This document shows, one piece after another, positions 24,965 through 63,457 of a stretch of 64,000 nucleotides of DNA. The notes below the pieces were generated by a model. It did no database searches, had not been told where the DNA came from, and saw only the letters and a list, made by a program, of their open reading frames with translations. Made by a program: the position numbers and the translations under genes. How positions within the stretch are numbered: the stretch's first letter is position 1; each line of letters opens with the position of its first letter. The DNA is from a bacterium (lineage in GTDB: Bacteria > Zhuqueibacterota > QNDG01 > JAFGCO01): NCBI GenBank assembly GCA_016932575.1, contig JAFGCO010000071.1, positions 75,651 to 139,650 on the forward strand, in the 5' to 3' direction.

Positions 24965-27010
24965 ATGAGTCCACGAAAAAAAATATCGATTCAGCCTGTG
25001 ACCTTGTTTGTGGTGACCCTGATTCTGCTCACGATGTTTTCTGTATTTGCCCTCATAGAGTTTTTTCAATCCAAGCATGAGATTCTGAGTATCATGGAAG
25101 ATGAAGGGCTTGTTTTACTGGATGCGCTGATGGCGGGAGCGGAACGTTCTGTCCTGGCTTATGAGGCACTGGAATCACAGATGCAAAACCGGTTGATGGA
25201 TCATGCCTATGCATTTGAAACTTTTGACTATCATACATATCTGAATCCAGAAAAAATTAACGCGCTGGCGACGACGTTCAATCTGTTCCGGATTGAGATC
25301 CTGAATACCCGGGGTGTAAGCATATTCAGGAGTGGTGCGGATTTGCCGGCAAAAATCGATGATACGCAGTTGATCCCGAAGTGGCTGGCTCCGCTTTTTC
25401 ATGGAAACGGTGATTCTGTGTTGACTGGATTCGGCGAAGGGAAATACGGCCGAAATTCAAGATATGCCGTGGCTGTTCGGAGACGCCGGGGCGGCGCAAT
25501 TGTTGTGGATGCCGATGTTATGGTTTTACTCGAGATGCGTCGGGAAGTCGGCCCTGGTCGTTTTGTGCAGGAAATCGGAAGCCGGTCGGGCGTGGTCTAT
25601 GTTGTGCTTCAGGATACGCTTGGCATACAGATGGCCAGCCGCTCTGTACAGCAGATCAGTTCAATTCTGAAGGATCCCTTTCTTCTCAGAATTTTTCAGG
25701 AACATGGACAGGCTTCCCGCATTGCTTCTTTTAATCATCAGGAAGTGTTTGAAATAGCGGCTTCCTTTCATGTTGAGGATCAGCAGATCGGTTTATTTCG
25801 CATTGGTTTGACCATGAATGCTTATCGGAGCCTGATGAAAAGCGCCCGCATCCGGCTGTTGTTTATAGGAATCAGCCTTCTTTTTCTCGGGATTGTGGGA
25901 TTTGCTCTTGTCGTGGTCACTCAGAATGTTCGGCTGCTTTCAGAATCTTATAAACAGATACAAACACATACCGGTGAAATTCTTCAGAATTTGGAGGATG
26001 CAGTGGTGGCCGTGGATGGTGCCGGAATAATCACCGTATTTAACAGCGCCGCGGAATCTATCTATCAATTGCGAAGGGATACTGTGATTGGAACCCGAAT
26101 TTCTGAATATTCACTGTCGTGCTTTGAATTATTGAAAGAGACATTAACAACAGGAGAACAAATCAAGGCACAGGAAAACCAATGTGAAATTCAAAATCAG
26201 CAGCTGATTCTGAGATTGAGTACATCTGTTATTCGGAATTCCTCGAAAATCATTGATGCAGCCATCCTGGTCGCCTCTGATATTACAGAGCAGAGACAAC
26301 TGGAAAAACAATTACAAAGACAGGAGAAATTGCAGGCCATGGGTGCATTGGCCTCCGGTGTTGCGCATGAAGTCAGGAATCCCATAAATGCCATCGGCAT
26401 GATTGCCCAGAGATTTCAGAAAGAATTTCAACCTAAAAAAGACTTGAAAGAATATCAGAAACTTACCCGGGCGATGCGTGAAGAAGTCGGACGAATTAAC
26501 GGCATCATTCAACAATTTTTGGAGTTTGCAAAACCGCCGGCGTTACAATGCAGAATCCTTTCTATTGAGAAATTATTTGATGATGTTCATGCCGTTTTTA
26601 ATAGCAGCGCTACTTCCAAGAAAGTCATTTTCGAAGTTAAAGTCAATGACCAAGTAGTGCTTGACATGGACTTTGATCAGATGAAGCAAGCGCTTCTTAA
26701 TCTGCTCAATAACGGATTGGATGCCTGCCGGCCCGGAGACCGGCTCAATATGTCCGGTTACCTTGAGAATCAGTCTTATATCATTGAAATAAAAGATACA
26801 GGACGCGGTATTCCGGAATCAGAACTCGGCCGGATTTTTGATCTTTACTATACAACAAAGGCAGAGGGTACGGGTATAGGATTGCCCATGGTGGTTCAGA
26901 TCATTCAAGGACATGGAGGAACCATCGAAGTGCACAGTGAACTGAATCACGGCAGCTGTTTTAAAATTCGGCTGCCCTGTCAATCCCAAGGAAAAAGTGC
27001 CAAAAATTGA
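24965..27010 (+). CDS. NtrB-type sensor histidine kinase
   Basis: A 681-residue membrane kinase. It has a membrane segment at about 13-32, a periplasmic sensor domain (about 35-295), and a second membrane segment at about 298-318. A PAS-like domain (about 335-445) follows. The phosphoacceptor is His468 in GVAHEVRNPIN. The ATPase domain shows N-box LLNLLNNGLDAC, then DTGRGIP and GTGIGLPMV. The gene overlaps no other start of note but its end runs 83 bases before the response regulator start. The pair is a sigma-54-type two-component system; the signal is unknown. Confidence 0.92.
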   Translation: MSPRKKISIQPVTLFVVTLILLTMFSVFALIEFFQSKHEILSIMEDEGLVLLDALMAGAERSVLAYEALESQMQNRLMDHAYAFETFDYHTYLNPEKINALATTFNLFRIEILNTRGVSIFRSGADLPAKIDDTQLIPKWLAPLFHGNGDSVLTGFGEGKYGRNSRYAVAVRRRRGGAIVVDADVMVLLEMRREVGPGRFVQEIGSRSGVVYVVLQDTLGIQMASRSVQQISSILKDPFLLRIFQEHGQASRIASFNHQEVFEIAASFHVEDQQIGLFRIGLTMNAYRSLMKSARIRLLFIGISLLFLGIVGFALVVVTQNVRLLSESYKQIQTHTGEILQNLEDAVVAVDGAGIITVFNSAAESIYQLRRDTVIGTRISEYSLSCFELLKETLTTGEQIKAQENQCEIQNQQLILRLSTSVIRNSSKIIDAAILVASDITEQRQLEKQLQRQEKLQAMGALASGVAHEVRNPINAIGMIAQRFQKEFQPKKDLKEYQKLTRAMREEVGRINGIIQQFLEFAKPPALQCRILSIEKLFDDVHAVFNSSATSKKVIFEVKVNDQVVLDMDFDQMKQALLNLLNNGLDACRPGDRLNMSGYLENQSYIIEIKDTGRGIPESELGRIFDLYYTTKAEGTGIGLPMVVQIIQGHGGTIEVHSELNHGSCFKIRLPCQSQGKSAKN

Positions 27011-27092
27011 TTTCATATTCCTTGAGTGGATTAAGGCAGCTGATCATGTCTTATTTTCACATGCTTCAATTTATTTAACGGAGGCATTTCTT

Positions 27093-28454
27093 TTGGAAAA
27101 GCATACTATCCTGATTGTGGATGATGAATCTATTCAGCTTGAGACATTATCCGGATATTTAAAAAAGAACCGGTCTTATCATGTGTTACAGGCAAATAAC
27201 GGAGAAGAAGGCATTCAAATGATTCAGGAGAATCAGATCGACCTCATTCTCACCGACATGAGGATGCCCATTATGGATGGATTTGCCCTCCTCAATGCCA
27301 CTCGGCGTATCAATCCGGAAATATCTGTTGTGGTAATGACCGCTTTTAGCAGCGTTGATGATGCCGTCAAGGTAATGAAAGCCGGGGCTGATGATTATTT
27401 GCAAAAACCGGTTGATCTGGATCAGCTGGATTTGGTTCTGGACCGCGTTTTGAAAAACAGGCGGTTAATCAGTGAAAATCTGACATTAAAGAAAGCATTG
27501 CAGACCCGTGTTGAATTCAGTCAAATTATTGCCGCCAGTCCGCAGATGGAGGATGTGCTGAACATGGCAGGACGAGCTGCCCGAAGCCGGGCGACCGTAC
27601 TGATCCGCGGGGAGAGCGGAACAGGCAAAGAAGTGATGGCTAGAGCCATACATCTGGCCAGTCCCAGAAAAGAAGAACCCTTTATCACTATGAATATGGC
27701 TGCTGTTCCGGAAAATTTAATTGAGAGTGAACTTTTTGGACATGAAAAGGGTGCCTTTACCGGGGCGGACCGGCAGAGAAAAGGCCGGTTTGAACTGGCA
27801 GATAAGGGAACACTTTTTATCGATGAGATTGGCGAAGTACCAACCGCCATACAGGTTAAATTGCTACGTGTGCTCCAGGAACAGACTTTCGAACGCGTCG
27901 GCGGAAGCACAACGCTGAATGTGGATGTCCGTGTTGTGGCTGCAACCAATCAGGACCTGGAAATGTTGATTCAGGAGGGACGTTTTCGGGAGGATTTATT
28001 TTATCGGTTGAACGTGGTTTGTTTAAAATTACCGCCGCTGCGGGAACGCCGCCAGGAAATTCCCCGATTTGTGGATCATTTTATCCGTAAATATGCTGTC
28101 GAAGAAGAACATCCATTAAGCGGTATTTCCAAAGAAGCTTTGGATATTTTAATGAAGTATGATTATCCGGGCAATGTACGGGAACTTGAAAATATTATTC
28201 ACCGTGCAGTGGTGATGACCCGGGAGGACATGATTATCACTCAAGATCTCTCTCCGGCCGTACTGGGCCAGAAAGAAAAACCGAGATCTGTTCAGTCAAG
28301 TGATGATCTGATCAGTCAGGTCGAAAATTTGGAACATCGCTTGATTCGTGATGCCTTGTCGTCCTCTGAGGGGAATCAGAGCCGTGCTGCACGTTCTCTT
28401 GGAATTTCAGAGCGACATTTACGATATAAGTTGAAGAAGTATGGAATGAAGTGA
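27093..28454 (+). CDS. NtrC-family response regulator
   Basis: A sigma-54 activator of 453 residues. The receiver domain has acidic pair VDDE, phosphoacceptor Asp55 in LTDMRMP and the conserved Lys in LQKPVD. The AAA+ domain has GESGTGKEVMARAIH, GAFTGA and FIDEIGEVP. The Fis-type helix-turn-helix is NQSRAARSLGISERHLRYKL. The start is TTG 27093, with GGAGG (27080-27084) 8 bases upstream; a longer in-frame start inside the kinase gene has no ribosome site and adds non-homologous residues. Partner of the preceding kinase. Candidate activator of the sigma-54 promoters at 30403 and 31191. Confidence 0.92.
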   Translation: MEKHTILIVDDESIQLETLSGYLKKNRSYHVLQANNGEEGIQMIQENQIDLILTDMRMPIMDGFALLNATRRINPEISVVVMTAFSSVDDAVKVMKAGADDYLQKPVDLDQLDLVLDRVLKNRRLISENLTLKKALQTRVEFSQIIAASPQMEDVLNMAGRAARSRATVLIRGESGTGKEVMARAIHLASPRKEEPFITMNMAAVPENLIESELFGHEKGAFTGADRQRKGRFELADKGTLFIDEIGEVPTAIQVKLLRVLQEQTFERVGGSTTLNVDVRVVAATNQDLEMLIQEGRFREDLFYRLNVVCLKLPPLRERRQEIPRFVDHFIRKYAVEEEHPLSGISKEALDILMKYDYPGNVRELENIIHRAVVMTREDMIITQDLSPAVLGQKEKPRSVQSSDDLISQVENLEHRLIRDALSSSEGNQSRAARSLGISERHLRYKLKKYGMK

Positions 28455-29366: not shown

Positions 29367-30239
29367 ATGTCAATCACAGAATACATCCAGAATAAAATAT
29401 TGACTTTTCAGAAAAATGAGATTACAGAGTATCACATTTATATGAAATTGGCCGGTGCTGTTCGTCACCCTGAAAACAGGGCCCTTCTGGAAAAAATCGC
29501 AAATGATGAATTGCGCCATTATCAGTTCTGGAAGTCAATTTCGAATAAAGAAATTTCTCCTAGCCGTTGGAAATTATGGAAATATTATCTGATCAGCCGG
29601 ATTTTCGGATTCACCTTTGGAATCAAACTTATGGAAAACGGGGAAGAAGATGCCCAGGAAGCCTATCTTGAACTTAAGGAGCATTATCCCAAGGTCAAAG
29701 ACATTATTCAGGATGAAAATGAACATGAAGATGCATTGATTCAGCTCCTGAATGAAGAAAAACTACAGTATATTGGTTCCATTGTTCTCGGATTGAATGA
29801 TGCGCTGGTGGAACTTACAGGCGCCCTTGCCGGTTTTACTCTGGCTCTACGGGATACCGGCCTGATTGCTTTAACCGGAATGATTACCGGCATCGCGGCT
29901 GCTTTGTCAATGGCCGCCTCCGAATATATATCCAAAAAATCCGAAGATACACTTAAGCATCCCCTCAAAGCCTCCCTTTACACAGGCATTGCGTATTTGC
30001 TTACAGTGATTATTCTGATTTTTCCTTATCTGATTTTAAAAAACTATTACTTATGCCTCGGATGTACATTGATCGCAGCAGTGATGATTATTGCGTTCTT
30101 CAATTATTATATCTCGGTGGCCAAAGAAATCCCATTTAAAAAACGCTTTCTCGGGATGGCCGGACTCAGTCTGGGGGTTTCTGCATTCTCATTTTTAATC
30201 GGGTATTTGATGAGATCCGTTTTAGGTGTTGATATTTGA
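29367..30239 (+). CDS. Ferritin-like domain fused to VIT1/CCC1 metal transporter
   Basis: A 290-residue membrane protein. The N-terminal half (about 1-135) is a ferritin/rubrerythrin-like helical bundle with metal-ligand patterns: ITEYHIY, NDELRHYQFW, EEDAQEAY and DENEHEDALI. The C-terminal half (about 140-288) is a VIT1/CCC1 transporter with about five membrane segments; LGLNDALVELTGALAGFTLA and MAASEYISKKSE are family blocks. Known relatives (MbfA-type) export iron or manganese from the cytoplasm. It follows the hydrolase by 31 bases and may end that operon. Confidence 0.88.
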   Translation: MSITEYIQNKILTFQKNEITEYHIYMKLAGAVRHPENRALLEKIANDELRHYQFWKSISNKEISPSRWKLWKYYLISRIFGFTFGIKLMENGEEDAQEAYLELKEHYPKVKDIIQDENEHEDALIQLLNEEKLQYIGSIVLGLNDALVELTGALAGFTLALRDTGLIALTGMITGIAAALSMAASEYISKKSEDTLKHPLKASLYTGIAYLLTVIILIFPYLILKNYYLCLGCTLIAAVMIIAFFNYYISVAKEIPFKKRFLGMAGLSLGVSAFSFLIGYLMRSVLGVDI

Positions 30240-30283: not shown

Positions 30284-30402
30284 TTGTTCGTCTTTCCTGT
30301 CGAATTTGCCGACCATATTGTCTGAAAAGGTCATTAATTCTTTGATCAGTCATCAGGCTATCTGAATTGATTATTAAGAAATTACGTCTATTTCAAATAT
30401 TT

Positions 30403-30418
30403 TGGCACGGCCGTTGCT
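30403..30418 (+). promoter_or_regulatory. Sigma-54 promoter of the first calcium-repeat gene
   Basis: TGGCACGGCCGTTGCT is a full match to the consensus TGGCACG-N4-TTGCW. It lies 44 bases before the ATG at 30463. It is the strongest sigma-54 element in the window. Confidence 0.93.
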
Positions 30419-30462
30419 TTACAGGCAGACAGTAAGCGAAACGATAAATCACAGGAGGAATC

Positions 30463-30927
30463 ATGAAACGCTTTTTATTTTTTCTGATTACGACTGCAAT
30501 CTTGTCCGGCAGTATCAATTATCTTCAAGCTCAGGACAGTACTCAGGTGCAGACCAAAACTCACGGTGCCAATTTTGTAGACGAAGATGGTGACGGGATC
30601 AATGATAATCGGCAGGGTGCGGGAGGGCAAGGTCAGGGTCAGGGAGCAGGCCAGGGACAGAAATCCGATCGTGGTTTTATTGACCTGGACGGCGACGGAT
30701 TAAATGACTGGGCTCAGGATGCTGATGGTGACGGGATTCCGAACGGTCAGGATGAAGACTATGTCAGCCCCGAAAACGGTAACGGCAGTTCAAATCAACA
30801 GGGAAGCGGCAAGGGGCGCCGGGGAAATGGTGCCTGGCAATCCGGCCAGAATTCAGGTACCGGTGATTGTGACGGATCCGGAACCGGTCAGGGAGGCGGA
30901 CGGCGCAGAGGACGCGGTAAGAAATAA
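30463..30927 (+). CDS. Secreted protein with DxDGDGxxD calcium-loop repeats
   Basis: A 154-residue exported protein with a signal peptide (about 1-23, ending LQAQ). The mature part has three aspartate-rich loops of the thrombospondin type 3/EF-loop kind: VDEDGDGIND, IDLDGDGLND and QDADGDGIPN. These should bind Ca2+. Between and after them are low-complexity stretches rich in Gly, Gln, Ser and Arg. The tail is GGGRRRGRGKK. GGAGG precedes the ATG. It is a monocistronic unit with a sigma-54 promoter and a strong terminator. The same repeat type occurs in the gene at 33097. No enzyme domain is visible. Confidence 0.82.
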   Translation: MKRFLFFLITTAILSGSINYLQAQDSTQVQTKTHGANFVDEDGDGINDNRQGAGGQGQGQGAGQGQKSDRGFIDLDGDGLNDWAQDADGDGIPNGQDEDYVSPENGNGSSNQQGSGKGRRGNGAWQSGQNSGTGDCDGSGTGQGGGRRRGRGKK

Positions 30928-30948
30928 CAAACTTGTTTTGTTCCGATT

Positions 30949-30982
30949 AAAAGCAGGACGATGGTCATTGTCCTGCTTTTTT
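30949..30982 (+). terminator. Rho-independent terminator
   Basis: The stem AAAAGCAGGAC/GTCCTGCTTTT (30949-30959 and 30970-30980) ends in a T run, 22 bases after the calcium-repeat gene. Confidence 0.9.
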
Positions 30983-31057
30983 ATTATGAATTTTATTTGA
31001 TCATATTTAATATCGGTTAAGATATTGTTTAATGAAGCTTATGATAAATTCCAAGGT

Positions 31058-31097
31058 TTCGACTTCTTGGACGAGACGTCTCGACGATTTTGTCGAA
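31058..31097 (+). promoter_or_regulatory. Symmetrical dyad, candidate enhancer for the sigma-54 promoter
   Basis: TTCGAC (31058-31063), 8 bases, the 12-bp palindrome CGAGACGTCTCG (31072-31083), 8 bases, GTCGAA (31092-31097). The two spacers are equal, so the element is symmetrical over 40 bases. It lies about 95-130 bases upstream of the -24 element, where an NtrC-type activator would bind. Confidence 0.55.
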
Positions 31098-31190
31098 GAA
31101 TGATAAAGAAGATTGACAGTGAAATCTGAATTACTAAATAAAGTATATGTTTTTTAGAGAGTTAGAATATTAAAAAATTGTCACAATAAC

Positions 31191-31206
31191 AGGCACAGTG
31201 ATTGCA
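31191..31206 (+). promoter_or_regulatory. Sigma-54 promoter of the T9SS Ig-protein gene
   Basis: AGGCACAGTGATTGCA keeps GG and GC at exact spacing and matches TGGCAC-N5-TTGCA at all but one core position. It lies 48 bases before the ATG at 31255, nearly the same distance as at 30403. Confidence 0.8.
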
Positions 31207-31254
31207 TGATGATGCTTCTGAAATCACGAAAAAAATTAAAATTGAAAGGAGTTC

Positions 31255-33018
31255 ATGATGAATCAGGCAAGCAAGGGACTACAAATCGGAGCTGCTGTTT
31301 TTCTCAGTGTATTGTTGTTCTCATTCAGTGTATGGGCGCAGGGGGATACGCAAGGCAGATCAAAAAAGCAATATGAGATTGAAATCATCCCGGCTCAAGT
31401 TGAAGTCGATGCGGAAGAAACCGTTCAGTTTACGGCTCAGGCACTGAACCGTGAAGGGGCTGCCGCGGAAGTGGAGATCGAGTGGAGTGTGCTGAATAAA
31501 AGGGTGGGTGAGATTGATGAAAATGGACTGTTCACTGCAATTGCAGGCGGACATACGCATGTTATCGCGCGGGCAGGAAGGTCGGTGGGTAAAGCTGAAG
31601 TGATTGTTCGACGTGATTCTGTTCAAAATCAGAACCTGCGGCAGGGATTACGTGTGGTAATCAGTCCGAACAGTGCCATCATGGATGCCGGAGAGACTTG
31701 CCAGTTTTCTGCGAGCCTTGTCGACAGCAGCGGAGAGACTCTGGAAGCGGCATTCGACTGGGGTGTTGACGGGGATTTCGGCATTGTGGATGAAACCGGA
31801 TTATTTGAAGCACTGGAAGCCGGACGCGGATTTGTGTATGCTACAACGGGTGATATCAGCGGTCGTGCGCATGTGGTCGTCATGAATGAAAACGGAAACC
31901 ATGGCGCCATGAACTCTGCCAAACGGGGTACCAAAATGGTTCTGGTTCCCAACGACACCATTGTCCTGATTGAAAATGTTGTTCAGTTTCAGGCTTTTCT
32001 GGAAGATACCCTTGGAAACCAGAGTGAAGTCTATCCTGAATGGGAAATGGTCGGCAGGGATGTCGGCTCCATTGATGAAAGCGGACTCTTTACAGCCAGT
32101 ACCGCCGGAAACGGTGTTGTCAAAGCCAGCTTAGAACGATATACAGCTACTGCAAGGGTTCGTGTGGCCACAACCGAAGATACGGCCAATGCCAAAAATG
32201 TTGAATTTAAAATGAAGAAGCGGGACGGGGAGCAGATCGGCAATATGAAACGAATCAAGGAAACCGATGTTTTTAAGATCAGCGGCATGCCGTTCCCTCT
32301 TAATCTGCTCAACGGCGCAGAGGTCACCTTGCCTGCCGGCGCTCTGGAACAGGATATCACTATCGATGTTTCCATTCCAAGTATTGCCGGTGTCAAAGAT
32401 ACCACGGTTTCCCTTCCAGAAGCAATATTGAACGGAATCTCTTTCGATGTTTATGTGGATGGCGAGCTGGTCAGTCCTTTTGTGTTCGACGAACCCGTGC
32501 AACTGGTCATTCCTTACAAACAGGAAATGATGAACGATATGGGGCTCACATTGGATGATTTATGGGTGTTTTTCTATACGGACAAGGACGGGTATGATAG
32601 CGACGGCCTCTTCAATATTTATGTGGACACCACCGAGAATAAAATTATTGTAGAAGTCAGCCATTTTTCCGAGATTGTAATCGGTGACAAAAAATTGGCC
32701 GGTACAACCGGTGTCGAGTCTCAGGTTACACCCGATGATTATGCCTTGTATGCCAATTATCCCAATCCATTTAATCCGGTTACGTCGATCCGATTTTATG
32801 TGAGCGGAACACAAATGCAGCATCTGACGCTGACTGTGTATAATCTGCTGGGACAGAAAATCCGGGTATTGACGGATCGTGAATTTGCCCCGGGTTTCCA
32901 TCAATTAAAATGGGATGGTACCAACCAGCACGGTCAAAGCATGAGCTCAGGTGTTTATCTGTATCAGTTGGAAGGTCAAAACCTGAATCTTTGCCGGCAA
33001 ATGGTTCTGATTCGATAG
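31255..33018 (+). CDS. Secreted Ig-like repeat protein with T9SS sorting domain
   Basis: A 587-residue surface or secreted protein. A signal peptide (about 1-29, ending VWAQ) is followed by three Big_2-like Ig repeats (about 40-120, 130-215, 226-305), each ending in a GxIDExGLFTA-type turn. Next is a ZU5-like region starting at GAEVTLPAGAL (about 358). The C-terminus is a T9SS type A sorting domain: YPNPFNPVTSIRF, YNLLGQKIRVL, WDGTNQHG, SSGVYLYQL. Two ATG codons (31255, 31258) are possible starts behind AAAGGAG. It is driven by a sigma-54 promoter and ends in a terminator. Role may be adhesive or structural; this is inference. Confidence 0.87.
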   Translation: MMNQASKGLQIGAAVFLSVLLFSFSVWAQGDTQGRSKKQYEIEIIPAQVEVDAEETVQFTAQALNREGAAAEVEIEWSVLNKRVGEIDENGLFTAIAGGHTHVIARAGRSVGKAEVIVRRDSVQNQNLRQGLRVVISPNSAIMDAGETCQFSASLVDSSGETLEAAFDWGVDGDFGIVDETGLFEALEAGRGFVYATTGDISGRAHVVVMNENGNHGAMNSAKRGTKMVLVPNDTIVLIENVVQFQAFLEDTLGNQSEVYPEWEMVGRDVGSIDESGLFTASTAGNGVVKASLERYTATARVRVATTEDTANAKNVEFKMKKRDGEQIGNMKRIKETDVFKISGMPFPLNLLNGAEVTLPAGALEQDITIDVSIPSIAGVKDTTVSLPEAILNGISFDVYVDGELVSPFVFDEPVQLVIPYKQEMMNDMGLTLDDLWVFFYTDKDGYDSDGLFNIYVDTTENKIIVEVSHFSEIVIGDKKLAGTTGVESQVTPDDYALYANYPNPFNPVTSIRFYVSGTQMQHLTLTVYNLLGQKIRVLTDREFAPGFHQLKWDGTNQHGQSMSSGVYLYQLEGQNLNLCRQMVLIR

Positions 33019-33028
33019 TATAATATCG

Positions 33029-33058
33029 GGAGGCAGCTTCTGCGGCTGCCTCCATTTT
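33029..33058 (+). terminator. Rho-independent terminator
   Basis: A perfect 9-bp stem GGAGGCAGC/GCTGCCTCC (33029-33037 and 33045-33053) followed by ATTTT, 10 bases after the Ig-protein stop. The T tract is short, so some read-through into the next gene is likely. Confidence 0.75.
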
Positions 33059-33096
33059 ACTTGATTTTCATATTCTTTGGAATTATTTTAATAATT

Positions 33097-33741
33097 ATGA
33101 AAACAATTTTATACATTATTTTCGCTTATTTTCTGCTTTATGCATTCAGCTGGGGGCAGGAAAATATGATAGTTGGTTTCGAAGATACCGACCACAACGG
33201 TGTGAATGATCATTTCGCAGATGCCGACGGGGATGGGATGAATGATGTGGATGGCCGGCCATATGAACATACTTTCCAATTTCAGGATAAAAACAAGGAT
33301 GGAAAAAATGATCTCTGGGCAGACGCAGATGGCGACGGGGTGAATGACTTGTTGAGTCATTTTCAGAAAAAAGCCTGGATTGACATCAACGGCGACGGGA
33401 TCCAGGACGAAGGCACAGGCGTGCTTCGGGGGCAAGCGCTTAAAAAACATGTGTTGGATACAAATCAGGATAATATCAACGACATTACAGGTGAAAGAAT
33501 TACCAGTACATCACTGGGCGGTTATAAATTGGGCCGGGTAAATGAAGAAAATGGTATGCCGGATCGTGGGTTTTTGGGAAATGATGGAGATAGAATGAAT
33601 GACCGGTCAGCTGCCGGAGTCTCGGAAAATCAGCGGGGCCGGGATATGGATGTATTCATTGATCAGGATGGAGATGGCATTGCGGATGGACGGGGTCTCG
33701 GGCGGTTTAAGACAAAACAACGGGGCAAAAACAATCAATAG
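33097..33741 (+). CDS. Secreted calcium-loop repeat protein
   Basis: A 214-residue exported protein. The preferred ATG 33097 gives a clean signal peptide (MKTILYIIFAYFLLYAFSWG); an in-frame TTG at 33061 abuts the terminator and would add a second hydrophobic stretch. The mature part has at least seven aspartate-rich loops, including DTDHNGVND, DADGDGMND, DKNKDGKND, DADGDGVND, DINGDGIQD, DTNQDNIND and DQDGDGIAD. These fit TSP3/EF-type Ca2+ loops. The tail is basic (FKTKQRGKNNQ). It shares loop type with the gene at 30463. The outer-membrane barrel gene starts 7 bases after its stop. Confidence 0.8.
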   Translation: MKTILYIIFAYFLLYAFSWGQENMIVGFEDTDHNGVNDHFADADGDGMNDVDGRPYEHTFQFQDKNKDGKNDLWADADGDGVNDLLSHFQKKAWIDINGDGIQDEGTGVLRGQALKKHVLDTNQDNINDITGERITSTSLGGYKLGRVNEENGMPDRGFLGNDGDRMNDRSAAGVSENQRGRDMDVFIDQDGDGIADGRGLGRFKTKQRGKNNQ

Positions 33742-33748
33742 CGGATCA

Positions 33749-35134
33749 ATGGCTATGTGGATGCACAACTGCCTGTCAGCGCGATGGGCATTTTTTGTAT
33801 GTGTTATTATCGCCTTTGGTGTGCCGGTTTTGCAGGCTGGCTTCAACGCAGATATCGCTGCATGGGTTGTGCAGGATCGGAATGCTTTTCAGAATTATGA
33901 GCAACTTTCCGATGTGATTGTTCAACCTTCTTTGACACTGACTTATTCAAGAACCTGGATCAATACCCGTTTGCAGTTGTTCTATGAAGGATCTCTTTCT
34001 TTTTTTCAAACCTATTCAGAACGGCAATATCAGACCCACTATGGCGGATTCGCATTTCAGCAGTATATTGGAGAGACCGGGCCCGTGCTGTCTGCCGGAC
34101 TGCAAATCGGTCAGCGGGCCAACAGGGATTCATTGTATGCTTATTATGATTATTCCCACCAGATTGGATATTTTAATGTAAGAAAACAATGGGGCAATTC
34201 GGCGATGTCTTTGCTGGGAATATGGATGCAACGACGGCATTATCAGGAATGGCAGTCTTTTAATCAACGGGAAATGCGGATTTTTTTTCAGCAAAGCCTG
34301 TTTTTACCTTCGCGAACCACAGTGATTGCACGTATTCAGCTGGGGAATAAAAAATTTCTGAATTCCAGGGTGAATGAAATCGACTTAGAGGAAAAATTTG
34401 AAGAAGAATGGAACGCGCCCGTTAACCGGAGTCAGGGTCAACGCCGAGGCAACCAAGACGGTACTGATCAGGAAAACAATGACAGCAATGATGATGTGAA
34501 TACCAACGGCAATGGAAGTGATAGAGGAAATGGAAGCGGAAATGGACAGGGAAGTCTCAGCCGAGATGCGGGACGTTCGGTATCGTTTATAAATACAACA
34601 ATTGATACGATCGGAAACCAGGTTCGTTTTGAGATTCCAGGAGAAGAAGTATTGCAATGGGTTTTTTCCATTCGAATTGCGCAGTCCATCCATGAAAATA
34701 CCGGGGTGGCCGTTGAAAGCAAGTGGAGGCGACGGGCGGACGGCCACGGGCGGTTTTTACTCTATCAGGATTCCGGGTATGAGGAGGATGATCCTCTTTT
34801 TGATGATGTGTACAGCTATGAGAGTGATGCTTTATCCGTTGAGGTCACCCAGAAGTTACCCTGGCGGCTGTTGTTCAGAGGAGGCTGGCGCACTGAAAAT
34901 AAGTTTTATGACTACCTTGCGCAGGATTTGGAAGGCAATGTGATCGCAGACAGTTTATTAAAAGAAGACAACCGTCAACTCTTCTGGGCGACAATTAGCA
35001 GGCGGTTTTCAATGGGTGCTGTCAAGCGTGCTGAAATTTCCATATCCTACAATTATATTGATAACCAGTCCAATGAACCGTATTCGGATTACAGGGATCA
35101 AGTCCTGTTATTTGGATGGAGTTTTGGATTTTAG
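33749..35134 (+). CDS. Predicted outer-membrane beta-barrel with Asn/Gly/Asp-rich insert
   Basis: About 461 residues from ATG 33749 (ATG 33755 and 33761 are also possible). A hydrophobic signal region (about 8-30, ending VLQAG) precedes alternating aromatic beta-strands such as SLTLTYSRTWINTRLQLFYE and the final FGWSFGF, typical of porin-like barrels. A low-complexity insert (about 235-280) rich in Asn, Gly, Asp and Gln interrupts the barrel and resembles the linkers of the neighbouring calcium-repeat proteins. The start is 7 bases after the upstream gene, so they are cotranscribed. No named family was recognised; an export or anchoring role for the repeat proteins is inference. Confidence 0.7.
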   Translation: MAMWMHNCLSARWAFFVCVIIAFGVPVLQAGFNADIAAWVVQDRNAFQNYEQLSDVIVQPSLTLTYSRTWINTRLQLFYEGSLSFFQTYSERQYQTHYGGFAFQQYIGETGPVLSAGLQIGQRANRDSLYAYYDYSHQIGYFNVRKQWGNSAMSLLGIWMQRRHYQEWQSFNQREMRIFFQQSLFLPSRTTVIARIQLGNKKFLNSRVNEIDLEEKFEEEWNAPVNRSQGQRRGNQDGTDQENNDSNDDVNTNGNGSDRGNGSGNGQGSLSRDAGRSVSFINTTIDTIGNQVRFEIPGEEVLQWVFSIRIAQSIHENTGVAVESKWRRRADGHGRFLLYQDSGYEEDDPLFDDVYSYESDALSVEVTQKLPWRLLFRGGWRTENKFYDYLAQDLEGNVIADSLLKEDNRQLFWATISRRFSMGAVKRAEISISYNYIDNQSNEPYSDYRDQVLLFGWSFGF

Positions 35135-56198: not shown

Positions 56199-58643
56199 AT
56201 GCGAAAATTTTTCAAATCCGCAGAATTCATACTTTTATTATCTGCTGTAATTTCAGCCGTTGTCCTGCTTCGACTGTTTGACCGGATCTATCCGGAATCA
56301 GCCATTTGCGTTCCTCTCAGCAGGAATGATATTATGCAGAAGGCCGAATCGATCATGGATTCACTCGGTTATAACGTCGATCAGTATTCCGACAATATTC
56401 AGCTGGCATGTAATGAAGATATGCTCCGTTATTTACAAACGACCTATGGCAGCGGTCAATCTATTGACTTAATGTCAGATTCTGTTCCTGTGTTTTGGTG
56501 GGAATGCAAGTGGGAATTCGAAGATGCAGAATCCGATACAATTCAAATTGTGGTGTCAATGGGAGAAGACGATTCGCAGGCGCAAACAAGAGGATATCGG
56601 CTGTCTATGTTGCCTGACGGACGTCCAATAGGACTGGAAGTAAAAACCCGTTTCGACTCCATGGTCGTTTCCGGTGAAGCTTCTGCGGTCAGGGAAGCAA
56701 AAAAAATATTCAGTATTCTGGTTGATGACACCACATTATGGGAATTCACAGATGTCTATGAATCATCCGGCAATCATCATCAGTTCTACCGAGTGAAGTG
56801 GAAATTCAAAGGGCTCGTAGCGGATCTTGAGAAAAGAGTTGTTATTGATATTTGTGATTCTCGCATCTTAGGCTTTCAGCAGGAATGGGGCATTCCTCCC
56901 AAATCGTCCGGTCAAAAGTCCATAGAAGAAATTATCGGCATTACCTCCTTTCTGCTGGTTTATATGCTTTTTGTGATTTTAGGGCTGATTTTTCTGATCA
57001 AACGGCTTCGCTCCGATCAGGTCGATTTATTAAGCGGGCTGATTCCCGGCATTCTGATTCTGGTGAGTTGGACAATTATTTTCTGGCAGACGGAAATTCA
57101 AGGAAATATTGGAACTGCTTTATTGGGGTATTTTATTACAACACCCTTTGTTGCCGGTGCAATATGGGTGTTGTTTATTCTGGGAGAATCTTTTGCCCGT
57201 GAAGTATGGTCCGAAAAGTTGCAGATTTTCGATCAATTACGAAAAGGCATTGTATCTTCCGGTACTGGATTGGTTCTTATTCATGGAATTCTTCTGGCTG
57301 TTATTTACCTGGCTTTACATGCGATTATGAGTTATGCAACAGTGAATCTGGGGCACGGATTTTTTCCAATCGGAAGAGGGCACTTAAATCTGTGGTCTGC
57401 AGCAGTGCCTTCTGTACTGCTTGTGGCAAAGAGTCTGATGTCCGGTTCTTTTATAGCAGTTCCTCTCTGTATGTTTTTTCTGTCATTACTGAAACGTTAT
57501 CTCAGGAAAACCATATTGGTATTATTTATCGCCGGTATTGTCTGGTCTGTGGTTTGTCCACCGATTCATGAATGTGCACCGATTCTACAAAGGCTTCCAA
57601 TCGATCTAATTATGGGGCTTTTTGTATGTTTTATATTCTTGCGGTTTGAACTTTTTACAACATTTATCATGCTTACTATTGCACAGGTGATATACCAGGC
57701 GGGAATTTTTCTTTTAAGCGGAAATGCGTTTTATCTGACATCCTCCTTCCTGTTAATCGGACTGATTGTCGTGTTATGCATTTTGGGTTTGTGGCTGCTG
57801 ATTCGGCGGAAAAAGGCGGGTGATTCACTTGAATTCGTACCTGATTATATGAAACGGATTTATAACCGTGAGCGATTAAAGCGGGAACTGGAAATTGCCC
57901 GGAACGTACAACTTTATTTTTTGCCTCGGGAAAATCCTGAGATAGAGGGGCTCGATATCGCCAGTTTATGTGCGCCGGCGAGGGAAGTGGGGGGTGACTA
58001 TTTTGATTTTATTCAATTGGGTGAAAAAAAGTTAGGAGTGGTTGTTGGAGACGTTTCCGGTAAAGGTATTCCGGCTGCTTTTTATATGACACTGACCAAA
58101 GGTTTATTTAAGTCGCTTGCCACCAGTCATGATTCACCTAAAGAGGTACTCGTTCGTTTAAATCAGTTGTTTTTTGAAAATGCCAGGCGGGGTGTTTTCA
58201 TCAGTATGATTTACGGTGTTTTTGATCTTGGCAAGCAGATAATGACCTTTGCACGTGCCGGGCATAATCCCATGGTTTTGTATCGATCAAACGAACATAC
58301 CACAGAAGAAATTTGCCCTCCCGGAATTGCCATCGGATTTAATACCAACGATCTTTTCAGAGAAACGATTCGGGAATATACACTGCCGCTTCGACCTAAT
58401 GACCTTTTTCTGTTTTATACTGATGGTTTGAATGAAGCCAGGAACTCTGAACAGCAGGAATTTGGCGAAATTCGTTTGCAGAAAATTATATCAAGACAGG
58501 ACAAAGTGAGTGCTCAGACCCGATTGGCTGAGATTGAACGCGCTATTCAGCGTTTTACAGGCAATGCAGAAAAACATGATGACATGACAGCTGTTTTGAT
58601 TCAGGTTAAAAAGACGCATAACCCCAATGAACGAAAAAAATGA
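56199..58643 (+). CDS. Membrane PP2C (SpoIIE-type) phosphatase 1
   Basis: An 814-residue membrane protein of the RsbU/SpoIIE type, which dephosphorylates anti-anti-sigma proteins. One membrane segment (about 9-28) is followed by a large extracytoplasmic domain (about 30-245) and some eight further membrane segments (about 248-530). The phosphatase domain (about 565-808) has LEIARNVQLYFLPRENPEI, AREVGGDYFDF, GDVSGKGIPAAFYM, TDGLNEARN and HDDMTAV, so the metal-binding Asp residues are intact. It is the first gene of the partner-switching module. The signal is unknown. Confidence 0.88.
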   Translation: MRKFFKSAEFILLLSAVISAVVLLRLFDRIYPESAICVPLSRNDIMQKAESIMDSLGYNVDQYSDNIQLACNEDMLRYLQTTYGSGQSIDLMSDSVPVFWWECKWEFEDAESDTIQIVVSMGEDDSQAQTRGYRLSMLPDGRPIGLEVKTRFDSMVVSGEASAVREAKKIFSILVDDTTLWEFTDVYESSGNHHQFYRVKWKFKGLVADLEKRVVIDICDSRILGFQQEWGIPPKSSGQKSIEEIIGITSFLLVYMLFVILGLIFLIKRLRSDQVDLLSGLIPGILILVSWTIIFWQTEIQGNIGTALLGYFITTPFVAGAIWVLFILGESFAREVWSEKLQIFDQLRKGIVSSGTGLVLIHGILLAVIYLALHAIMSYATVNLGHGFFPIGRGHLNLWSAAVPSVLLVAKSLMSGSFIAVPLCMFFLSLLKRYLRKTILVLFIAGIVWSVVCPPIHECAPILQRLPIDLIMGLFVCFIFLRFELFTTFIMLTIAQVIYQAGIFLLSGNAFYLTSSFLLIGLIVVLCILGLWLLIRRKKAGDSLEFVPDYMKRIYNRERLKRELEIARNVQLYFLPRENPEIEGLDIASLCAPAREVGGDYFDFIQLGEKKLGVVVGDVSGKGIPAAFYMTLTKGLFKSLATSHDSPKEVLVRLNQLFFENARRGVFISMIYGVFDLGKQIMTFARAGHNPMVLYRSNEHTTEEICPPGIAIGFNTNDLFRETIREYTLPLRPNDLFLFYTDGLNEARNSEQQEFGEIRLQKIISRQDKVSAQTRLAEIERAIQRFTGNAEKHDDMTAVLIQVKKTHNPNERKK

Positions 58644-58783
58644 AACCTGAATTGCTTTGAGTAAGACAGCCATTGTTCCATGTGCCAGATCAGATGGACA
58701 AGACATATAAAAAGTGATTGTCGATATGAATATCAATACCAAGAATATTAATACAATCAATATTCTTATCCAGGGTTAGCGCA

Positions 58784-60862
58784 ATGAAAAAATTGATGAG
58801 AACTTGGTCAGGATTGGTGATATCAGCGTTATTACTTTTATTGGCCATGTGTTATACTGTCTGTTTTCTGCCGAGCGATTTATCTGACTGGTGGGGCCAT
58901 ACCATTCAGGAATTACTCTGCTTTGTTGCAGCCATTGTAGGATTGATCTGGATCATGCGGCAATCCTATTTTGAACGGCTGGGTTTAATGCAGAAATTAC
59001 GATTAATCAGTGGCTTTGTGTTGCTTTTGTGGGGATTAATCAGACTTTTTTCAGGCGCATATCCCTTGGAAATCTATTATGATACCCATGTCTTTGGTCG
59101 TCAGATTGTCTGGCTGGCGCTTCAAATCAGTTTGGTGGCGGTCATTTGTATTATTATACTGTCTATTCTTAAATCACTGGCATTTGTTCAGCAGGGAAGA
59201 GGAACAGCCCGTAATTTTAATGGCATGATTTTTATGCTTTTTCTGGTCACCGTTTCCGCCTTTATTCCTCATGAAACCATTGATGACTGGGAGTTTGAGC
59301 AGCCCTTTTTCTTTTATGGAAACACGGTTCAGATTATCGCGCAATCGCTGCTTGTTTTTACATCTTTCATCATCGGATTCCGCTGTAAATGGATGCACTA
59401 CCTAAACAGGCAAAAGAAAATCCTGTCGACAGGTATTGGCATTGTATTGCTGCTGCTTATCATTCAATTAATTCCCATGCTGCCGGGTGTTGCTATTCAA
59501 TACAGTGTGATCCTGAGTGCTTTTATTAAAGGCACAATCATGATATTACTCATCTATGGAAGCATGTCGGTTTGGGGACTCATTTTACAGCTGCCCTCAG
59601 CAGGATTAATGGACCGGCGTATGCAGGATATTCAGTCACTGCAACAAATCAGCGCCACCATTGGAACGGTTTACAATCGTAAGGATTTGATGGTAAAAAC
59701 CAGCGAACTTGCACTTGAGATTCTGAATGGTGATTTTACCTGGATCGAATTGAAAAAACAGGATGGCTATGAACAGGCAGCAATCTCAGGTATTGAATCC
59801 TCTCAAATTCAGGCCATAGAACCAAATCTGTGTGCCCTGCGGCAGGCTGTGCAGGAAAAAGGTGAGGTCTTTATGATTCATGATATTTCCCGCAGCCGTT
59901 TTTTTCGTCATGGTCCAAAATGGCATTTCAAAGGCGGTTCTCTTTTGATGGCGGTATTAAGATTTAAACATGAAATTATTGGTTTTATGGCTGTGGGTAA
60001 GCAAAACGCTTTTGGTTTCGTTGAAGAGAGTCGGGGTCTGTTTCGCGCATTTTGTGATCAAGTGGCTGTGGCTTTGGAAAACGTCCGGCTTGTTGAACTC
60101 TCCATTGAACGTGAGGTTTATAAAGAAGAATTACGTGTGGCACATCAGGCTCAAATGCGGCTGCTCCCTCAAGAGGTACCTCAAATATCCGATCTGGATG
60201 TCGATGGATTTTGTCTGACAGCAAATGACATCGGGGGGGATTTTTATGATTATATCCTGATGAGCGACCGGCGTTTGGATATTGTCATCGGTGATGTATC
60301 CGGAAAAGGCGCAGCAGCAGCTTTTTATATGGCCGAGTTGAAAGGGGTTCTTCAATCTCTGGCTCCGCATTTCGAATCTCCGAAAGATATGCTTGTTCAG
60401 ATCAATGATTTTCTTTGTAACCATATGGAAAGTAATATGTTCGTTACGATGATTTATATGATATTTAATTTTTCAAGAAATCAAGTGCGCTTTGCCAGAG
60501 CCGGTCATGAACCGGTATGCTACTTCCATGACAAGCAAATGAAATGGATTGAAAAAAAAGGCATCGGTCTGGGTTTGGTATCCGGCAGTCAATTTGAAGA
60601 TGTCATGGAAGAAGAAGTTTTATCGCTTGATCCGGATGATGGACTGTTTTTGTATACGGATGGTTTAATAGAAGCCCGAAATCAAACTGGAGAAGAATTT
60701 GGCCGCCGTCGTCTTAATGCATTATTAAATGATATATATGATATGAAGGTTAAGAAAATTAATGAGACCATACAGAAAAAAATCAAACTGTTTTGTCAAG
60801 AAGCCCCACAGCAGGATGACATGACTGCTGTAATGATTCGGTATTACGGGCAATCAGAATAA
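58784..60862 (+). CDS. Membrane GAF-PP2C phosphatase 2
   Basis: A 692-residue protein with about eight membrane segments (about 10-270), a GAF domain (about 285-445) and a SpoIIE-type PP2C domain (about 455-690). The phosphatase motifs are complete: VAHQAQMRLLPQEVP, NDIGGDFYDY, GDVSGKGAAAAFYM, TDGLIEARN and QDDMTAVMI. It is a second phosphatase input for the STAS protein encoded 34 bases downstream. The ligand of the GAF domain is not known. Confidence 0.88.
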   Translation: MKKLMRTWSGLVISALLLLLAMCYTVCFLPSDLSDWWGHTIQELLCFVAAIVGLIWIMRQSYFERLGLMQKLRLISGFVLLLWGLIRLFSGAYPLEIYYDTHVFGRQIVWLALQISLVAVICIIILSILKSLAFVQQGRGTARNFNGMIFMLFLVTVSAFIPHETIDDWEFEQPFFFYGNTVQIIAQSLLVFTSFIIGFRCKWMHYLNRQKKILSTGIGIVLLLLIIQLIPMLPGVAIQYSVILSAFIKGTIMILLIYGSMSVWGLILQLPSAGLMDRRMQDIQSLQQISATIGTVYNRKDLMVKTSELALEILNGDFTWIELKKQDGYEQAAISGIESSQIQAIEPNLCALRQAVQEKGEVFMIHDISRSRFFRHGPKWHFKGGSLLMAVLRFKHEIIGFMAVGKQNAFGFVEESRGLFRAFCDQVAVALENVRLVELSIEREVYKEELRVAHQAQMRLLPQEVPQISDLDVDGFCLTANDIGGDFYDYILMSDRRLDIVIGDVSGKGAAAAFYMAELKGVLQSLAPHFESPKDMLVQINDFLCNHMESNMFVTMIYMIFNFSRNQVRFARAGHEPVCYFHDKQMKWIEKKGIGLGLVSGSQFEDVMEEEVLSLDPDDGLFLYTDGLIEARNQTGEEFGRRRLNALLNDIYDMKVKKINETIQKKIKLFCQEAPQQDDMTAVMIRYYGQSE

Positions 60863-60896
60863 ATATAACGATATTCTTAATAAAGGAGATTTATAT

Positions 60897-61247
60897 ATGA
60901 GTGCTTTCGAAGTCAGAAGAAAAGATGCCGATACTGTCTCTGTGCTTTATTTGAAAGGGTATCTGGATGCACACACGGCTCCCGATTTCGAACAGGCGTT
61001 ACAAAATCTGGTGGATGAAAACCGGGTATGCATTGTTGTCAATATGGAAGAACTTTCGTATATCAGCAGTGCTGGATTAGGCGTTTTTATGGGATTTATA
61101 GAAGATATTAGAACCAAGGGAGGCGATATAAAATTAGCCGAACTGACTGAAAAAGTGTACCGTGTCTTTGATTTACTGGGATTTCCTGTTCTATATGATA
61201 TTTTTGAGAAAGAAATGGAAGCTATAGAAAAATATAAGGAAGGATAA
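60897..61247 (+). CDS. STAS-domain anti-anti-sigma factor
   Basis: A 116-residue SpoIIAA/RsbV-like protein. It binds the anti-sigma kinase when unphosphorylated and is released when phosphorylated. The phosphorylation site is in YISSAGLGV, with Ser58 as the expected acceptor. The AAGGAG ribosome site precedes the ATG. Its position between phosphatase genes and a kinase gene fits the partner-switching mechanism. The protein binds a cognate kinase, probably the next gene product. Confidence 0.93.
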   Translation: MSAFEVRRKDADTVSVLYLKGYLDAHTAPDFEQALQNLVDENRVCIVVNMEELSYISSAGLGVFMGFIEDIRTKGGDIKLAELTEKVYRVFDLLGFPVLYDIFEKEMEAIEKYKEG

Positions 61248-61251
61248 GCGC

Positions 61252-61689
61252 ATGGTCACTCGAAACGCCGAATATAAGTTACATATCCCCAGTCAGACCG
61301 ACAATTTGGAGCTTATCCGTAATTTTGTGTCAGGCGTGGCTAAAAAAGTCGGTTTTGGTAATGAGGATATTAATAAAATCGAACTTGCACTGGATGAAGC
61401 TTGCACCAATGTAATTGAGCACGCTTATCGTGATTTAGATAAAGGGGATATTGATATTGCGATTAAAGTTGACTACCAGAAATTTGTAATTTTGGTGACA
61501 GACAAGGGTAAAAGTTTTCCATTTAAAGAACTTGAAATTCCTGATATGAAACAATATCTGGCAGAATTGCGTGTGGGGGGGCTTGGTGTCTATTTAATGA
61601 AATCACTCATGGATGAAGTTGAATATCACAGTGAGCCGGGTGTTAAAAATGAGGTGCGCATGGTAAAATATTTTTTAAATAAAGATTGA
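61252..61689 (+). CDS. RsbW-like anti-sigma factor serine kinase
   Basis: A 145-residue GHKL-type ATPase that phosphorylates the STAS protein and may sequester a sigma factor. The N-box is ELALDEACTNVIEHAY (44-59) and the lid/G2 region is GGLGVYLMKSLMDEVEY. The G1 box reads DKGKSFP in place of the usual DxGxGF. It starts 4 bases after the STAS stop. No sigma factor gene follows, so its sigma partner or other target is elsewhere. Confidence 0.9.
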   Translation: MVTRNAEYKLHIPSQTDNLELIRNFVSGVAKKVGFGNEDINKIELALDEACTNVIEHAYRDLDKGDIDIAIKVDYQKFVILVTDKGKSFPFKELEIPDMKQYLAELRVGGLGVYLMKSLMDEVEYHSEPGVKNEVRMVKYFLNKD

Positions 61690-61735
61690 ATAAATCGATT
61701 ATAAAGTAAAGAAACCAGTCTGTTTGATAAACACC

Positions 61736-63457
61736 ATGAAAAATCAGATGTCAAATCATTCATTGCCCTCGCAGCAGTTGGACAAGCGCTTACTGGAATT
61801 AACCGCCTTGTTTGAGATCAGCAGATCTTTAAGTGCTTCAATAAATTTGAATTCTATTCTGGAAAATATATTGAGAATACCTATGGGGCATATGTTGATC
61901 AGCCGTGGTATGGTACTGTTAAAAAAGGGATTAGAAGATGTATATTCCATTGAGGGGATAAAAGGATTTCCCAGACAATTCATGGGAAAAACCATTGAGG
62001 TGGATGTCCCTCCTGTTCGTGCTGTTTCTGTCGAGGATGTCAGTGACAAACATTTGTGGAAAACCTTTTTTACGGAATTTGAAATTGAACTGATTTTACC
62101 GCTGGTTTCGTCTCGAGGGGTGATCGGGCTGGTGGGATTCGGAGCGAAAATCAAAGGAGATGCGTATGAAGAAAGCGAATTGGAATTTTTAGATTCTCTT
62201 TCTAATATTGCAGCCACCACGGTGGCGAATGGATTAATGGTCGATGAGATTCAAACTGTCAATCGACAGCTTGATAGAAAGATACAACAACTGAATACCA
62301 TTTTTGACATTAGCCGTGAATTTAATATTACACTTGATCTTAAAAAAATAGGCAGTCTTCTCAGTTTTGCAGTCATGGGCGAGCTGATGGTCAATAAATG
62401 TATTGTTATGACACGTGATGATAAGCTAATGCAAGTGCTGGTTTGCAAGGGTGTTGATTCTCCCGAACAGCAGGCGTCTGATCTTTGTCAACTGTCCGAG
62501 CCTGTTTTTATCAGTGACACAGATCGTTTTCAGAATCTCCAAGACATGGGTATTTCACTTTTGGTACCCATGCGGCTTCAAGATGAAACAAAAGGCATTC
62601 TCGCAGTGGGTGCAAAAATATCCGAAAAAGACTTTCTCGATAGTGAGCTGGAATTTTTAACGACCTTGGGCAATCAGGCGATGGCGGCCCTCGAGAATGC
62701 CCGCCTGTTTGAAGAGATGCTCGAAAAACAGCGAATGGAGGAAGAACTTAACCTCGCAAGAAGTATCCAGCAGAATTTGTTGCCCTCACAATTACCCAGT
62801 TTTAAAGAAGTCGATATTGCAGCCGTTAATATACCCAGCCGTGAGGTTGGTGGAGATTACTATGACGTGATTCCGATTAGTGAAACCAGGTTCGGTGTTA
62901 CTATCGCGGATGTGGCTGGAAAAGGTGCAGGCGCTGCCATGCTGATGGCCAATTTGCAGGCCAGCTTACATGCATTGGTTTCTACTGACTTACCAATCAA
63001 TGATGTGTTATACAGGATTAACCGATTTATTTATCAGAATACCGGACTGGATAAATTTATTACATTTTTTTATGGTGAGCTCGATATAAAAACGGGAGTA
63101 TTTACTTACAGCAATGCCGGCCATAATCCACCCATGAAGCTTAATAAAAATAAGCAATTGGAAGAATTGTCGGTAGGCGGGATTGTACTTGGCATGATGG
63201 AAGACGTCTCTTTTGATACAGAAACAATTCAGTTGGAACAGGGCGATTGTATTCTTTTATATACAGACGGAATCACAGAAACCATGAATGCTGAAGAGGA
63301 AGAATTCGGCGAATCAAGAGTTTTGTCTTGTTTAAAAGACAGGACCGATTGCAAGGCATCACAGATTATTCAAGAATTAATTGATGAAACCCGTCAATTT
63401 TCAGGATCAGATATTCAGGCTGATGATATGACAATGGTTGTGATAATAATGCAATAA
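61736..63457 (+). CDS. Soluble tandem-GAF PP2C phosphatase 3
   Basis: A 573-residue cytoplasmic protein: GAF domain 1 (about 25-175), GAF domain 2 (about 190-325), a short coiled coil (about 330-355) and a SpoIIE-type PP2C domain (about 358-573). The phosphatase motifs are intact: LARSIQQNLLPSQLP, SREVGGDYYDV, ADVAGKGAGAAMLM, TDGITETMN and ADDMTMV. ATG 61736 and the in-frame TTG 61724 are both possible starts; neither has a strong ribosome site. It is the third phosphatase of the module and the only one without membrane segments. Confidence 0.88.
   Translation: MKNQMSNHSLPSQQLDKRLLELTALFEISRSLSASINLNSILENILRIPMGHMLISRGMVLLKKGLEDVYSIEGIKGFPRQFMGKTIEVDVPPVRAVSVEDVSDKHLWKTFFTEFEIELILPLVSSRGVIGLVGFGAKIKGDAYEESELEFLDSLSNIAATTVANGLMVDEIQTVNRQLDRKIQQLNTIFDISREFNITLDLKKIGSLLSFAVMGELMVNKCIVMTRDDKLMQVLVCKGVDSPEQQASDLCQLSEPVFISDTDRFQNLQDMGISLLVPMRLQDETKGILAVGAKISEKDFLDSELEFLTTLGNQAMAALENARLFEEMLEKQRMEEELNLARSIQQNLLPSQLPSFKEVDIAAVNIPSREVGGDYYDVIPISETRFGVTIADVAGKGAGAAMLMANLQASLHALVSTDLPINDVLYRINRFIYQNTGLDKFITFFYGELDIKTGVFTYSNAGHNPPMKLNKNKQLEELSVGGIVLGMMEDVSFDTETIQLEQGDCILLYTDGITETMNAEEEEFGESRVLSCLKDRTDCKASQIIQELIDETRQFSGSDIQADDMTMVVIIMQ

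Follow-up and report, generated by a model that had tools for sequence, protein, structure and literature searches.

Gene content of the locus

The window analysed here is a 64,000-nucleotide stretch of a bacterial draft genome (4.41 Mb, 94.5% complete) in which it lies on contig 22; relatives of this genome include candidate division KSB1 records. Our subject is a cassette within it that encodes two exported calcium-loop proteins (here Ca1 and Ca2), a protein with immunoglobulin (Ig)-like domains and an outer-membrane barrel, together with candidate sigma-54 promoters and an upstream two-component system. From position 24965 onward, the gene order is histidine kinase, NtrC-type activator, alpha/beta hydrolase, ferritin-like/VIT1, Ca1, Ig protein, Ca2 and barrel, and the kinase, activator, Ca1, Ig, Ca2 and barrel genes, like the promoters and hairpins of the cassette, lie on the plus strand. 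An earlier note had drawn attention to this cassette, and its coordinates and distances were all reproduced on the window sequence.

Ca1 (30463..30927) encodes an exported protein of 154 aa, in which thrombospondin type 3 (TSP3)-like loops of the form DxDGDGxxD alternate with Gly-rich linkers and give way to a basic tail (RRRGRGKK), while Ca2 (33097..33741) encodes an exported protein of 214 aa with loops of the same form. As the earlier note had it, a gene for a type IX secretion system (T9SS) Ig protein lies between them (31255..33018), and the barrel gene (33749..35134) begins 7 bases 3′ of Ca2. The Ig-like protein is exported and has three Big_2 domains and a T9SS type A sorting tail. Both -24/-12 elements that had been called were confirmed: a perfect one, TGGCACGGCCGTTGCT, at 30403..30418, 44 bases ahead of the Ca1 ATG, and AGGCACAGTGATTGCA at 31191..31206, 48 bases ahead of the ATG of the Ig gene. 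Terminator-like hairpins follow Ca1 (30949..30980; -18.8 kcal/mol, z -5.0) and the Ig gene (33029..33053, trailed by a weak T tract), which would explain why these two genes have separate promoters.

An element missed by the earlier note is a palindrome, TTCGAC-N6-GTCGAA, about 95 bp upstream of both promoters, which we regard as a candidate activator site. Ahead of Ca1, the copy TTCGTCTTTCCTGTCGAA (30287..30304; one mismatch) lies 98 bases before the promoter and is joined by a degenerate second copy with four mismatches (30308-30325). Ahead of the Ig gene, an outer copy, TTCGACTTCTTGGACGAG (31058..31075; two mismatches), and an inner copy, CTCGACGATTTTGTCGAA (31080..31097; one mismatch), are 22 bp apart, the inner one being 93 bases from the promoter.

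Conservation of the neighbourhood

The earlier note would have considered its proposal refuted had related genomes shown no conserved neighbourhood, but such a neighbourhood is present in several phyla. Barrel loci were taken from KSB1, Calditrichota, Bacteroidota and Gemmatimonadota genomes, and in 46 of the 54 a loop gene was present within 3.5 kb of the barrel gene; 362,562 control bases of the same genome contained no small loop frame comparable to these. Thirty of these 46 loci have a strict -24/-12 element upstream, and 26 also have the palindrome before the promoter. Genome scans with the window barrel alone gave no relatives and a 44-row alignment was too diverse; a 12-row alignment succeeded, yielding 21 loci in named genomes of the same four groups (a few of the records had already been in the earlier set), in most of which Ca genes and an activator gene adjoin the barrel. 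Likewise, strong whole-genome matches to Ca2 (E < 1e-30) coincide with barrel loci. The layouts vary and include promoter-Ca1-Ig-Ca2-barrel, as in the window, promoter-Ca1-barrel, and T9SS-Ca2-barrel-kinase-activator.

Observations on individual loci (our handles start with L) may be added. The cassette of L154 is typically bacterial although the title of its record names Candidatus Heimdallarchaeota, and is probably there through a binning error. In several families (L066, L130, L221), the kinase/activator pair or a promoter adjoins a second barrel-like gene and one whose product has a lipoprotein-sorting-like end, LSRLGELR; L066 has ABC exporter genes as well.

Sigma-54 promoters and the palindromic site

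The genome has one sigma-54 gene (PF00309, 35.3 bits against a cut-off of 23.8) and encodes about 20 activators whose AAA domain is nearly complete. Perfect TGGCACRNNNNTTGCW sites, among them the one at 30403, number only 7 in the whole 4.4 Mb; allowing a single mismatch raises the count to 87, compared with 30 for the reversed pattern. Using our own weighting of the -24/-12 consensus as a promoter score, sites scoring at least 20.2 were found upstream of 17 of 21 Ca1-type genes in relatives as opposed to 1.1% of 262 control open reading frames (ORFs) on the same contigs, and at a score of at least 21.5 the figures were 13/21 and 0/262. No such site precedes any of nine Ca2-type genes in relatives, as would be expected if Ca2 genes lie inside transcription units.

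The palindrome, in its shorter form TCGAC-N6-GTCGA, was found in 15 of 22 regions upstream of -24/-12 promoters of this kind and in none of the shuffled sequences. Copies are commonly in tandem, about 22 bp apart, and lie roughly 75-120 bp ahead of the promoters of calcium-loop genes. Within the window, palindromes with up to three mismatches number 31 against a chance mean of 26.7, a count not above chance, and the weight of the window copies therefore comes from their position and from the relatives. At up to one mismatch, the whole genome holds seven, two of them in the cassette, and only one of the other five has a -24/-12-like site near it, a weak one (L163). That locus (L163:1501-1761), in which the one-mismatch palindrome and the weak promoter stand ahead of a gene for an exported protein of more than 419 aa, may be a further regulon member.

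When both elements were combined into a blind composite pattern (CGAC-N6-GTCG, 79-109 bases, GGCAY-N5-TTGC), 82 genomes of the phylum returned 34 matches compared with 3 for the reversed control. The majority of matches drive Ca1-type genes, some with no barrel nearby (L181, L184, L202, L215); others precede the window Ig gene, a DUF2202 protein gene (L201) and penta-haem cytochrome genes (L218, L219), and a few fall inside genes and look like chance. Together, the reversed-pattern, control-ORF and composite-search controls exclude a chance origin of the -24/-12 sites.

That Calditrichota have no -24/-12 sites was considered and dropped, since sites of the type TGGCAC-N4-TTTGA are present there and had been left out by a scan requiring GC. 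Calditrichota cassettes thus have palindromes together with this variant promoter, and their activators mostly carry GSFTGA, as read by eye. In L150-L160 (Calditrichota and Bacteroidales records), an apparent variant -12 element, with TTTGA in place of TTGC, goes along with GSFTGA activators, and the two features may co-vary. Elsewhere in the window's own genome, perfect -24/-12 sites lie directly ahead of two genes resembling Hsp20-type small heat-shock genes (L104, near 7194, and L106, near 9228).

A kinase and activator linked to the cassette

The gene at 24965..27010 encodes a transmembrane sensor histidine kinase with PAS, HisKA and HATPase_c domains and an N-terminal sensor region, as judged by Pfam, sensor homologues and alignment. 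It is followed at 26997..28454 by a gene for a sigma-54 enhancer-binding response regulator, whose true start is uncertain and which comprises a receiver (from about 27108), an AAA+ domain and a Fis-type helix-turn-helix; it matches Sigma54_activat (E 3e-73) and has the GAFTGA loop, and GAFTGA or close variants were present in every cassette activator tested. The position given for this pair by the earlier note held, as the pair (24965-28454) ends 1.95 kb upstream, but its label as NtrB/NtrC did not: the NCBIfam scores were 92.4 bits against a cut-off of 240 for NR(II), and 453.6 against 558.6 for NR(I) (TIGR01818). Identity with PrsR (TIGR02915; 420.2 bits, cut-off 502.6) or with ZraS and ZraR (202 against 479 bits and 425 against 760 bits, respectively) was rejected on the same grounds.

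The 52 cassette activators placed in a maximum-likelihood tree group in a single, orthologous clade with support of 100/99, which leaves out eight other activators of this genome as well as activators from other phyla beside barrel-less kinases. Among 147 relative genomes, the sensor part of the kinase occurs in 53, the barrel in 50 and both in 46. The sensor is hence present in 46 of the 50 barrel genomes, compared with about 18 expected under independence.

Exported proteins and the barrel

In relatives of Ca1, units resembling FVDENGDGINDNAPDADGDGIPNGQDPDY are strung together by linkers rich in Gly, Lys and Arg and followed by a basic tail, and GTGxCDGTGPKG is frequently present close to the end. 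Ca2 belongs to another family, in which loop residues are invariant; the segments between its loops are conserved among relatives, and the earlier description of Ca2 as consisting almost only of loops accordingly had to be abandoned. In Pfam, no model exceeded its cut-off for either protein, metal-chaperone families included; a profile search of solved structures with Ca2 gave no convincing relative, and a search of PHROGs produced no useful match. Both proteins share tandem loops such as FVDENGDGINDNAPDADGDGIPNGQDPDY with thrombospondin type 3 and other DxDxDG repeat proteins, from which they differ in being short, stand-alone and exported, in their basic, Gly-rich tails and in the lack of a Pfam model over cut-off. 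The Ig protein is a T9SS cargo according to TIGR04183 (26 bits, cut-off 23), and the genome encodes the T9SS component SprA (SprA_N).

For the barrel, AlphaFold gave a confident model (pLDDT 84.5, pTM 0.76) with 16 predicted strands, the first of which directly follows the signal peptide, with no N-terminal TPR or POTRA domain. With the topology inferred from short even-to-odd turns, and on the combined basis of model, family alignment and fold search, the Asn/Gly/Asp-rich insert corresponds to extracellular loop 5 (residues 204-299), which is disordered and, at 96 aa, longest in the window (11-65 aa in relatives). Conservation is greatest on the outside, with 0.51 for extracellular loops, 0.42 for strands and 0.32 for periplasmic turns, and S441, N442 and D407 of the extracellular loops are invariant in 44 sequences. 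Loops 6 and 8 contain DELFDDPYGY and NxSND, respectively. Fold searches matched porins, OprD, AlgE, CdiB and FhaC, with Z of 22.1 for CdiB, 20.9 for FhaC and 18-20 for porins; being scattered over several families at near-equal Z, these matches name no function. A profile search of solved structures revealed no convincing relative. Thirteen of 44 barrel relatives match SlipAM (DUF560) at E ≤ 0.01 (best E 1.7e-7), the window barrel being unmatched; two of the ten barrels listed exceeded the SlipAM cut-off, with the match in the C-terminal part where displayed. A search of the window's own genome with PF04575 found no match, and the control genomes gave none either.

Discussion

What might this cassette do? 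The above findings lend good support to a dedicated two-component sigma-54 regulon that comprises an unnamed barrel and exported calcium-loop proteins of TSP3-like type, and that a sigma-54 switch governs the cassette is a claim we make with high confidence. The earlier proposal of a sigma-54 regulon for calcium-loop proteins is thereby borne out as to the conserved neighbourhood, the promoters, the activator site and the activator clade, yet needs widening, as some lineages include other targets. The function of the calcium-loop proteins is a different matter: a coat or matrix is what their sequences would predict, with a chance that we place somewhat short of even.

In the mechanism that we envisage, the kinase would sense an extracytoplasmic condition and phosphorylate the activator, which would bind the palindromes and open sigma-54 polymerase at the -24/-12 promoters. 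Following export of the calcium-loop proteins, presumably by Sec, binding of Ca2+ outside the cytoplasm would stiffen their DxDGDG loops, with the Gly/Lys/Arg-rich linkers and basic tails remaining flexible. The T9SS would bring the window's Ig protein to the surface, and the barrel, with its conserved extracellular loops, might serve in the outer membrane to anchor the calcium-loop proteins or to let them out. The most likely product would be a tightly switchable, Ca2+-stabilised surface coat. As an overall explanation, a two-component sigma-54 switch for an exported set that would form such a coat appears to us the best available and probable. A bolder version, wherein an undescribed inducible surface layer of the FCB superphylum is controlled by this kinase and activator, its Ca2+-folded coat is assembled via or on a new 16-strand barrel and cytochromes are wired in by some lineages, is doubtful.

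Several points weigh against this interpretation. The genomes are related, so that our counts overstate the independent evidence, and some cassettes have no recognisable -24/-12 site. In the window itself, Ca2 and the barrel sit 3′ of a terminator-like hairpin and lack an obvious -24/-12 element; sigma-54 control of these two genes would thus need read-through or another promoter. Neither Ca1 nor Ca2 has a T9SS tail or lipobox, and retention in the periplasm is therefore possible, while the structure model of Ca2 is poor (pLDDT 57), too low for use. Finally, penta-haem cytochromes and DUF2202 proteins belong to the regulon in some genomes, which would not be expected for a pure matrix role.

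Might the barrel and the loop proteins instead form a secretion pair, in which the barrel is the outer-membrane translocator, as in type XI secretion systems (T11SS/Slam) or two-partner secretion, and folding on external Ca2+ pulls the loop proteins out? The two genes adjoin nearly everywhere, as a barrel gene and that of a candidate exported partner do in the DUF560 systems (PMC8406197, PMC12282271), the SlipAM matches add a weak similarity, and CdiB and FhaC are the best aligned solved folds. However, porins fit almost as well, leaving the fold non-discriminating; the 16 predicted strands set the barrel apart from Slam and are shared with TpsB, but the POTRA domains of TpsB, like the N-terminal TPR of Slam, are missing from the model; by Pfam and alignments, Ca1 and Ca2 lack the eight-strand C-terminal barrel domain of known T11SS cargo (PMC12282271); and orphan loop genes occur away from barrels. 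We consider such a pair unlikely. Quite unlikely, in our estimate, is a sentinel resembling ZraPSR (PMC10848872), whose kinase would sense divalent metal or envelope damage and whose loop proteins would act as periplasmic or surface buffers that shield the envelope and maybe feed back on the kinase. Here, too, a kinase and a sigma-54 activator lie beside a (divergent) promoter from which a small exported protein with metal-binding loops would be expressed, an arrangement with activator and kinase genes facing away from Ca1 and the promoter in between being found in L072, L077, L078 and L088 (and with a weaker site in L069); ZraS is the second-best NCBIfam match of the kinase and ZraR the third of the activator; and some members are metal proteins, with DUF2202 related to MJ0754 and VIT1-family genes flanking the cassette both here and in L150. 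Set against this, the ZraS and ZraR cut-offs are not reached, Pfam has no metal-chaperone match for Ca1 or Ca2, the loops belong to the calcium (DxDxDG) class, and the T9SS-borne Ig protein together with a barrel whose outer loops are conserved indicates the cell exterior. A surface redox or mineral interface, in which the regulon's layer handles extracellular metals or electrons on a calcium-loop scaffold, would accommodate the composite sites preceding penta-haem cytochromes in two genomes, one of these with a T9SS-type tail, the cytochrome between two promoter-bearing loop genes in L095 and L216, two cytochromes that pass the Pfam MtrC/MtrF-like cut-off, and the DUF2202 proteins near cassettes or in the regulon; with such members in a minority of genomes only and no cytochrome in the window cassette, it is very unlikely.

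That sigma-54 controls the exterior of bacteria has been put forward as a generalisation, in a paper whose main text mentions neither "calcium" nor "Bacteroidetes" (PMC3162934). Closest in logic, along with ZraPSR, is the PEP-CTERM regulon with PrsK/PrsR and sigma-54 (PMC1569441); another report describes an RpoN-dependent PEP-CTERM gene in floc formation (PMC9850573). Common to the PEP-CTERM system and our cassette are a kinase and NtrC-type activator, an upstream activator motif combined with -24/-12 elements, mostly exported targets and short transcription units. The targets of our cassette, in contrast, have no PEP-CTERM motif, occur in other phyla and include a barrel and a T9SS protein; the activator scores under the PrsR cut-off; and no exosortase was found, PF09721 being unmatched in this 94.5% complete genome while the control search matched one named genome. 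The cassette is a member of neither the PEP-CTERM/PrsK-PrsR nor the ZraPSR system, and its description was not found in the literature searched, coverage of which mostly excluded subscription papers.

For uncultured phyla (KSB1, Calditrichota and relatives), these findings define a regulon for which a regulator can be proposed and both the operator (18 bp) and the targets can be predicted, and the regulon predictions are open to test with a single purified protein. Next to PEP-CTERM, the cassette would be the second case of exported low-complexity proteins under a sigma-54 regulon, assembled from different parts. It also draws attention to a barrel family that is mostly unnamed in Pfam and has an unusually conserved outer face. 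The recurrence of kinase, activator and operator beside these genes in several little-studied phyla suggests that part of the cell surface is under a switch not described before.

Further targets and neighbouring genes

Penta-haem cytochromes are encoded at L218:1167-3203, L219:1306-2844, L216:1862-3799 and L095:6500-8437, three of them with T9SS-type tails and two exceeding the cut-off of the MtrC/MtrF-like domain in Pfam. Their genes either have a perfect -24/-12 element and palindromes ahead of them or are flanked by two promoter-bearing calcium-loop genes (L095, L216). Exported DUF2202 (MJ0754-like) proteins are encoded in or near Calditrichota cassettes (L151:4584-5264, L160:857-1573, L138:1273-1947, L156:8188-8781, L201); several end in a GRGRR-type sequence, and those of L156 and L201 have -24/-12 sites of their own. 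VIT1-family genes adjoin the cassette in the window (29367-30239) and in L150 (712-1530), which may be coincidence. Further downstream in the window, genes for RsbU-like phosphatases (three) and one RsbW-like kinase stand in a row (56199-63457), resembling a partner-switching module.

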